DNA of 52,489 nt. Source: Clostridia bacterium. GTDB lineage: Bacteria > Bacillota > Clostridia > UBA1381. The notes below the pieces were generated by a model. That model ran no database searches and was not told where the DNA came from. It worked only from the letters and a program-made list of their open reading frames with translations. The translations under genes were made by a program, and so were the position numbers. Shown here one piece after another: positions 47,139 to 49,056 of this stretch. Position 1 is the first letter of the stretch; each line of letters starts with the position of its first letter. The stretch is taken from the NCBI GenBank assembly GCA_022768695.1, contig JALEPO010000052.1, positions 1-52,489 of the forward strand, read 5' to 3'.

Positions 47139-47489
47139 TTATATTCCTCCAAGCCCAAAGCTTATGGACAATGCTGCGTTTACGCTTGTCATAAGCTTTC
47201 CGTCAAGCCTGCCTATTTTCTCTCGTAATCGTTTCTTATCAATTGTTCTGATTTGTTCAAGCAATATAACTGAATCCTTGTTAAGTCCGTATTCCTTTGC
47301 AGATAATTCAATATGCGTAGGCATTTTAGCCTTATTTATCTGGCTGGTTATAGCAGCCGCAATCACAGTAGGACTATATTTATTGCCTATATCATTCTGA
47401 ATTATAAGAACAGGTCTTATTCCTCCCTGCTCACTGCCTACAACGGGACTTAAATCGGCATAATAAATATCTCCTCTTTTAACTATCAC
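47139..47489 (-). CDS. mazF: MazF-type endoribonuclease toxin
   Basis: A 116-residue PemK/MazF/EndoA protein: [31 protein letters not shown] at the start, [10 protein letters not shown] in the middle and [13 protein letters not shown] near the end. The catalytic Arg (GIRPV) and Thr (ITSQ) are present. The Bacillus homologue cuts single-stranded RNA at UACAU. It starts with GTG at 47489, 3 bp after the antitoxin stop, with CGGAG inside the antitoxin as probable ribosome binding site. The alr-antitoxin-mazF order is standard in Firmicutes. Confidence 0.95.
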
Positions 47490-47492
47490 CTT

Positions 47493-47645
47493 TTATTCAC
47501 ACTCCGTCAGTTTTTCCTCACATTGCGAAAGACATTCGTTATCCGCTTCCAAACACATATGTGCCAGTTTAAGATTTATTTCCGCCATTTCTTCATAGCC
47601 TTCTTTGAGCTTACGCTCCAATTCGGCCTTTTTTGTGTGTGACAA
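47493..47645 (-). CDS. Short MazE/EndoAI-like antitoxin lacking a DNA-binding domain
   Basis: A 50-residue frame that starts with TTG at 47645, 9 bp after AAAGGAG. It contains LKEGYEEMAEINLKLAHMC and LEADNECLSQCEEKL, which matches the C-terminal toxin-binding segment of clostridial EndoAI-type antitoxins (pattern KxGYxEMAxINL). The ribbon-helix-helix DNA-binding domain that normally precedes it is missing: upstream the frame continues only as NGTINERSLIA before a TAA. So this is either a truncated or a minimal antitoxin. It lies between alr and mazF, where the full antitoxin gene normally is. Four cysteines in the last 20 residues are unusual. Confidence 0.75.
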   Translation of the reverse strand: MSHTKKAELERKLKEGYEEMAEINLKLAHMCLEADNECLSQCEEKLTECE

Positions 47646-47755
47646 AGCAATCAGGCTCCTTTCATTTATTGTGCCGTTTTATATATCAGAAAAATATAAA
47701 TCAATCATGATATATAAGCTTCTGTTTCAAGCTGCATCTGCAGTACCTCAAAAGC

Positions 47756-48913
47756 TTACAGCAGATAGTTAAGCTCTTTCACCGCCTCTCCGTTTTTAGT
47801 GTATATCCTCGGGATACGCTTTCCGATAAGACATGAAACCTCATAATTTATAGTTTCAAGCCATTTTGCAAGGTCGTCAATAGTAACGCCCTCTCTGCCG
47901 AAAATAATTGCTTCATCACCTTTATTGATATTATGAACATTTGTAACATCAATCATACATTGGTCCATACAAATTCTTCCGATGATGGGAACACTTTCTC
48001 CGCCCGCAATCATTTTTCCATTCTTAGCAAGCTTTCTTAAATATCCGTCGGCATAACCGATAGGTACAGTGGCAATTTTAGTTACTCCCTCGGTTATGTA
48101 CTCCTTGCCATAGCTGACTCCTCTTCCTGATTCTACCTCCTTAACATAACTTATACGCGCTTTAAGCGTCATAGCAGGTATCAAGGCAAGTCTTGATTTA
48201 TCAACCTCATCTGAAGGATACATACCATAAAGTATAACTCCGGGACGAACCATATCAAGATGCATTTCGGGATACATCATTATTCCGGCGCTGTTGCAGA
48301 TATGCTTTATAGGGATTTTTACACCTTTTTCCTCCAGTCCCTTAACCACATCCATAAAACGGTTATATTGAAGCAATGTGTACGATTGGTCTGCTTCATC
48401 TGACGTGGCAAAATGCGAAAAAATTCCTTCAATTTCTATATACGGCAATTTGGAAATTTTCACAATTTCATCAATAATGGCTCTGTTGTCATCTGTTGCA
48501 ACAAACCCTATACGGCTCATACCTGTATCTATTTTTATATGAATTTTTGTCACTTTCTCTTTTTTTTCTGCAATATACGAAAGTGCTTTTGCAAATTCAT
48601 AGTCAAAAACACTGGGTGTAATATCAAAATTAATTAAATCCTCCGCGCTTTCCTCGCTTGACGCGCCGAGAATCAGAATAGGAACATCCACACCACGACT
48701 TCTAAGCTGTTTTCCCTCCTGAAGCACCGCCACAGCAAGACGGTCAGCTCCATTCTCCAGCAGAGTCTTGGCAACCTCCATAAAACCGTGTCCGTATGCA
48801 TCAGCTTTCACAACTGCCATAATCTGAGCATTAGGATTGGTAATTTTTCTTATTTCCTGTATATTATGAGCGATTGCGTCAAGATCTACCTCTGCCCATG
48901 TACGTTTTTCCAT
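47756..48913 (-). CDS. alr: Alanine racemase
   Basis: The ATG at 48913 gives 385 residues, the family norm; the frame runs on to 49015 without protein-like sequence. AAAGGAG lies 14 bp before the ATG, long for a spacer, so a non-standard start slightly upstream is possible. The pyridoxal-phosphate lysine is Lys36 (MAVVKADAYGHG) and the opposite base is the Tyr of GVSYGKEYI. RPGVILYGMYP and IGRICMDQCMIDVT are further family motifs. It makes D-alanine for peptidoglycan. Located between nnrD/E and the toxin-antitoxin pair. Confidence 0.96.
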   Translation of the reverse strand: MEKRTWAEVDLDAIAHNIQEIRKITNPNAQIMAVVKADAYGHGFMEVAKTLLENGADRLAVAVLQEGKQLRSRGVDVPILILGASSEESAEDLINFDITPSVFDYEFAKALSYIAEKKEKVTKIHIKIDTGMSRIGFVATDDNRAIIDEIVKISKLPYIEIEGIFSHFATSDEADQSYTLLQYNRFMDVVKGLEEKGVKIPIKHICNSAGIMMYPEMHLDMVRPGVILYGMYPSDEVDKSRLALIPAMTLKARISYVKEVESGRGVSYGKEYITEGVTKIATVPIGYADGYLRKLAKNGKMIAGGESVPIIGRICMDQCMIDVTNVHNINKGDEAIIFGREGVTIDDLAKWLETINYEVSCLIGKRIPRIYTKNGEAVKELNYLL

Positions 48914-49056
48914 TTTAATAGTTTTGACTCCTTTCACTAAACCGTTCGAAAAATACTCTTTATCCCAAATAACAACATCCGCGCAATTTATATTTGTGCA
49001 GTATATATCGAGCATTTTTATCTTTATTATATGTTAATATAATATCATAAAATCTA

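Follow-up and report, generated by a model that had tools for sequence, protein, structure and literature searches.

A 50-residue EndoAI-like peptide without a DNA-binding domain as a probable MazF antitoxin in a family of Clostridia

A 50-amino-acid peptide encoded between alr and mazF in a gut-type Clostridia bacterium is very probably a functional type II antitoxin. Judged from its sequence, it would be reduced to those helices of an EndoAI/YdcD-type protein that bind MazF, and would block the MazF dimer without autoregulation. It would be made from a transcript beginning at alr, on which translation of mazF follows closely. The gene lies in a window of 52,489 nucleotides (the whole stretch of DNA analysed), whose minus strand carries, in this order, alr (47756-49015), a gap of 110 nt, the antitoxin frame (47493-47645) and mazF (47139-47489). 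The first of these, which from its sequence we take to be the alanine racemase gene, is the upstream gene of a presumed operon, the order alr-[antitoxin]-mazF being shared by relatives. The antitoxin frame, translated as LSHTKKAELERKLKEGYEEMAEINLKLAHMCLEADNECLSQCEEKLTECE, starts with TTG and is preceded, 10 nt upstream, by the Shine-Dalgarno sequence AAAGGAG (47656-47662, minus strand), which together with the next codons reads ERSLIA in frame. Its stop is separated by 3 nt from the GTG start of mazF, and the Shine-Dalgarno sequence of mazF, GGAG (47502-47505, minus strand), lies inside the last codons of the antitoxin, 12 nt upstream of that GTG. Because prediction gave neither a promoter-like nor a terminator-like site in the alr-antitoxin gap of the window, and because this gap measures 24-65 nt in most loci of the family (55 nt in the sister genome), transcription from alr, presumably as one message, is the likeliest supply of the peptide.

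Within the window, the same gap holds an inverted repeat of 10 nt without mismatches, TTATATATCA/TGATATATAA (47679-47717), of which no second full copy was found across the genome. Rfam gave no match for the window stretch or for 14 loci, and PADLOC gave none.

A class profile was built from 41 antitoxins that bear a ribbon-helix-helix (RHH) domain, using their toxin-binding ends; all are full-length proteins from other families of the class, and none is from the family of the window. Against the six-frame translation of the window, this profile recovered the 50-residue frame with an E-value of 2e-19, the next-best frame scoring 2.7. The NCBIfam model antitoxMazE_Staph (NF041459) matched the peptide with an E-value of 1.6e-6 and 28.2 bits, under its curated cut-off of 108; by sequence comparison the peptide is thus homologous to staphylococcal MazE and stands outside the NF041459 equivalog. 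A profile of the family peptides searched against the PDB matched EndoAI (4me7_E, E 2e-4) and the phage protein AimX (8anv_C, E 1.6e-4). The C-terminal LxxGYxEMAxIN helix, homologous to that of EndoAI, and the location of the gene directly upstream of an EndoA-type mazF and downstream of alr are those of an EndoAI/MazE-type antitoxin. An RHH domain was detected in the window frame neither by Pfam RHH_1 (PF01402) nor by an RHH profile built here, which scored nothing for L004, and the peptide does not belong with the autoregulating antitoxins of the CopG type. In the sister genome, the only other genome of the genus compared, the corresponding frame is likewise uninterrupted, with 84% identity. 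An earlier note, made from the DNA letters, had proposed a TTG-started frame of 50 residues behind a well-spaced AAAGGAG, holding no more of an EndoAI-like antitoxin than its toxin-binding half, and both points were borne out by the frame, its 10-nt spacing and the profile matches. Such short antitoxin genes are easily left unnamed, since no Pfam model reaches its cut-off on the peptide and the NCBIfam match is sub-threshold. PDB matches of the 50-residue query to influenza HA2 and to designed proteins were discarded as coiled-coil noise. Among the PHROGs, the peptide matched phrog_21769 (115 positions, unknown function) with an E-value of 2.4e-4; this is possibly a phage MazE/YosL-like family.

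The adjoining mazF, with a GTG start and 116 codons for an EndoA-type mRNA interferase, encodes a protein of the MazF/PemK family, scoring 133.9 bits against PemK_toxin (PF02452, cut-off 23.1). In phmmer searches of the PDB it matched 7bxy (2.3e-50) and EndoA (4me7, 1.3e-49). Arg25 and Thr48, the two catalytic residues in EndoA of B. subtilis, are both present, in line with the intact toxin expected next to the antitoxin. One MazF and one antitoxin were found in the genome itself, so that a full-length antitoxin encoded elsewhere, which would have spoken against a role for the peptide, did not appear; as the assembly is 85.6% complete, an unlinked antitoxin is possible.

We then read the alr-mazF loci of the taxonomic family of the window, in which MazF was matched in 63 of 70 genomes (7 gave no match). 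All 63 loci carry an antitoxin adjoining mazF, with a TTG start and an open frame behind a G-rich ribosome site, whose columns over 62 loci show G at -7 in 100%, C at -2 in 100% and T at -1 in 98%. The antitoxin is 49-54 amino acids long in 42 loci, 60-76 in 18 and 87-91 in three. The short antitoxin is the norm in this family; because 42 of the 63 loci carry the 49-54-residue form, the frame of the window is not a private relic, and the search for equally short frames in relatives that had been suggested as a check came out in its favour. The RHH profile recognised two of the 63 antitoxins, L020 and L027, both of 91 residues and both also matched by Pfam RHH_1, which found nothing in four shorter sequences tested; L022 is a third full-length antitoxin, diverged and unrecognised by the RHH profile. 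In the full-length genes of the family this TTG is followed at once by the RHH (MSQFKKVLITMPDYLLDEIDAL...) and preceded by codons reading GGLVALSQ. A family with a short norm and with intermediate and full-length relatives lends itself, as a series provided by nature, to the question of what a toxin-antitoxin pair gains from autoregulation.

Codon changes were counted over a 44-codon module in 33, then 32, of the 42 short loci, with L044 (masked N) and L055 (start mis-picked) among those left out. The median dN/dS was 0.29 (251 usable pairs from 33 loci), indicating purifying selection; between the window and its sister the ratio was 0.44, a value drawn from few changes (4 synonymous, 8 not). 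Given this conservation and selection on the gene, the peptide is probably a working antitoxin and, with no RHH detectable, probably one that can neither bind an operator nor autoregulate its transcription, as the earlier note had supposed. Selection also acts below the level of the protein. Synonymous change in the antitoxin amounted to 0.77 of the expectation from mazF codon rates, and codons of shared residues differing between window and sister numbered 3 of 36 in the antitoxin versus 32 of 88 in mazF. Over 32 short loci the ratio of observed to expected synonymous change was 0.00 at codons 41-43 (ACG GAG TGT), 0.02-0.49 at codons 36-39 (TGT GAG GAA AAA) and 0.85 at codon 40 (CTG), leaving the synonymous sites of the last codons (TGT GAG GAA AAA CTG ACG GAG TGT, 47499-47522, minus strand) mostly frozen. 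At the other end of the gene, the start region GATTGCT|TTG TCA CA (47638-47652, minus strand) is nearly invariant in the column frequencies of 62 family loci. Protein and nucleotide constraints thus both act on the short gene, and because conservation is partly at the nucleotide level, in the start region and at the mazF ribosome site, the C-terminal residues TECE need not reflect protein constraint.

Frozen ends of this kind would also be expected of an RNA-level device, in which the start and the end of the frame form a leader that times the translation of mazF, the peptide itself being of little importance. In the window and in the sister, the start of the frame contains TCACAC, which could base-pair with GTGTGA around the ribosome site of mazF. 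Folding of 40 short loci (L044, L052, L055, L058, L060 and L065 were left out) predicted this pairing in a fair proportion of them and not in the rest, the pairing being absent or nearly so from a large share of individual folds, at sites that hardly vary. No consensus fold was obtained over the 40 loci (alifold energy 0), and the codons in the middle of the gene show ordinary synonymous change with a conserved protein. We therefore consider a leader without a functional peptide improbable.

Marginally less probable again is that a once full-length antitoxin is decaying here and that the upstream residues NERSLIA are left over from its DNA-binding half, as had been suggested from the sequence of the window. 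The window frame does lack an RHH, and mazF genes without a recognisable adjacent antitoxin are common in the class, showing that stepwise loss does happen. The in-frame codons NGTINERSLIA upstream of the TTG exist; however, relatives read KGGLIALSQ or TGGLVALSQ where the window reads ERSLIALSH, in short and full-length genes (L020, L027) alike, and NERSLIA aligns with the ribosome site of the full-length genes. As this stretch is shared with relatives that have a full RHH, it is the Shine-Dalgarno region and spacer read in frame, which removes it as a remnant, and the alignments indicate that the gene kept its TTG start and lost the RHH from its interior. With the same length class in two thirds of the family loci (42/63), and the open frame, the TTG and the LxxGY motif kept in all 63, decay is largely refuted by the family survey, and loss "by decay" is a misleading description of a form that is the family norm.

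Acting as an antitoxin, the peptide would fold on the MazF dimer and insert its LxxGYxEM helix into the dimer cleft, blocking the RNA channel, by homology with EndoAI. In the EndoAI-EndoA complex, the C-terminal helices of EndoAI are reported to fill the cleft of the MazF dimer and to block the RNA channel (PMC5086665). Among the key positions named for AimX and MazE, the contact positions of AimX are M14, Y18, E20 and M21 (PMC10769878); they correspond to L, Y, E and M here, of which L and Y are kept in 63, M in 60 and E in 46 of the 63 loci. A switch of the peptide from MazF, which it would no longer bind, to another partner, as AimX also binds phi3T_93, is very hard to credit: AimX and MazE do bind a second, unrelated partner according to the same text (PMC10769878), but mazF adjacency in 63 of 63 family loci and the retained contact residues speak against it. 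Without an RHH, the proposed antitoxin would be unable to repress its own promoter, this domain having probably been removed by internal reduction behind the TTG, in a form that became the norm of the family. It would be translated just before mazF, whose ribosome site stands within the last antitoxin codons, and the two translation events may be coupled.

Similar to S. aureus MazE (56 residues), the locus of which is presumably also alr-linked, the peptide is short, has no DNA-binding half, matches NF041459 and precedes an EndoA-type mazF; unlike the S. aureus case, the host belongs to the Clostridia and no sigB operon was noticed downstream. With B. subtilis EndoAI (YdcD)/EndoA (4ME7) it shares the C-terminal toxin-binding helix and a toxin that is the EndoA orthologue, whereas EndoAI has an N-terminal RHH and the peptide none. 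Phage phi3T AimX, which neutralises MazF without an RHH, likewise has about 50 residues and only the MazE-like helix region, but it is a phage gene under arbitrium control and away from mazF. S. aureus MazE is reported to inhibit MazF without being autoregulated (PMC4041440, PMC3920265), and AimX is reported to protect a mazEF-deficient strain from the toxicity of MazF (PMC10769878). By analogy, these two proteins show that an RHH-less peptide of such size can suffice against MazF, and we infer that the present one neutralises its cognate MazF. A short, non-autoregulating MazE is thus already in print for Staphylococcus, and the peptide of Clostridia, though real, does not establish a novel type of system. 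No Clostridia counterpart of the short MazE, and no MazF without antitoxin, turned up in a literature search poor in subscription journals. Short RHH-less antitoxins, best known until now from Staphylococcus and phage AimX, here make up the norm of a family of Clostridia, and the family survey suggests a reduction within Clostridia rather than shared descent with Staphylococcus.

Across a class sample of 293 genomes, the antitoxin profile matched 141. The stop-to-stop frame was at most 83 amino acids in all 12 members of the window's family and in 10 of the 129 others, one of which (G229) is merely cut by the end of its contig. Among 60 class loci, fetched by a selection designed to include short frames and assigned to the full or reduced state by reading, ten carried a reduced antitoxin, spread over eight other family codes (f13, f15, f17, f27, f36, f44, f73 and f74); f17, f27 and f36 hold full-length antitoxins beside reduced ones. 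Three more short antitoxins (L216, L217, L218) were found among 20 loci missed by the profile. The best MazF tree, from 123 rows and 116 columns, asks for 13 switches from one state to the other, of which only 3 are forced by starred branches. The full-length RHH form is usual elsewhere in the class and reduction happened more than once; with states assigned by reading, loci chosen to include short frames and a tree of 116 columns, any count of independent losses is tentative.

MazF was matched at an E-value of 1e-30 or better in 238 of the 293 class genomes, against 141 with an antitoxin match, and at least 97 genomes therefore have MazF without a match to the antitoxin profile. This count overstates absence, as the 20 profile-missed loci read by eye comprised, besides the three short antitoxins, 17 with none recognisable. 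In 36 of 80 named MazF loci, no antitoxin match was obtained at an E-value of 10, and inspection by eye of the upstream 300 nt revealed none either. Since many Clostridia have a mazF beside which no antitoxin can be recognised, it is not safe to assume that the toxin must be neutralised by its neighbour; MazF may be tolerated in this state. It is conceivable, though we put it forward tentatively, that the alr-linked EndoAI antitoxin has been pared repeatedly across Clostridia, from a full RHH protein to a helix-only peptide to no gene at all, with MazF kept and the ribosome site of antitoxin-less mazF genes representing the former antitoxin tail. If this were true, autoregulation and even a protein antitoxin would be dispensable, and the role of this MazF would be that of a regulatory RNase and not of an addiction toxin.

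Loci in which mazF stands without a recognisable antitoxin frame, in several cases visibly after alr, comprise L207-L215 and the 36 noted among the named loci L127-L206. At such loci the sequence CGGAGYGTGAA is often still present as the ribosome site of mazF, resembling the end of the antitoxin gene in other loci.
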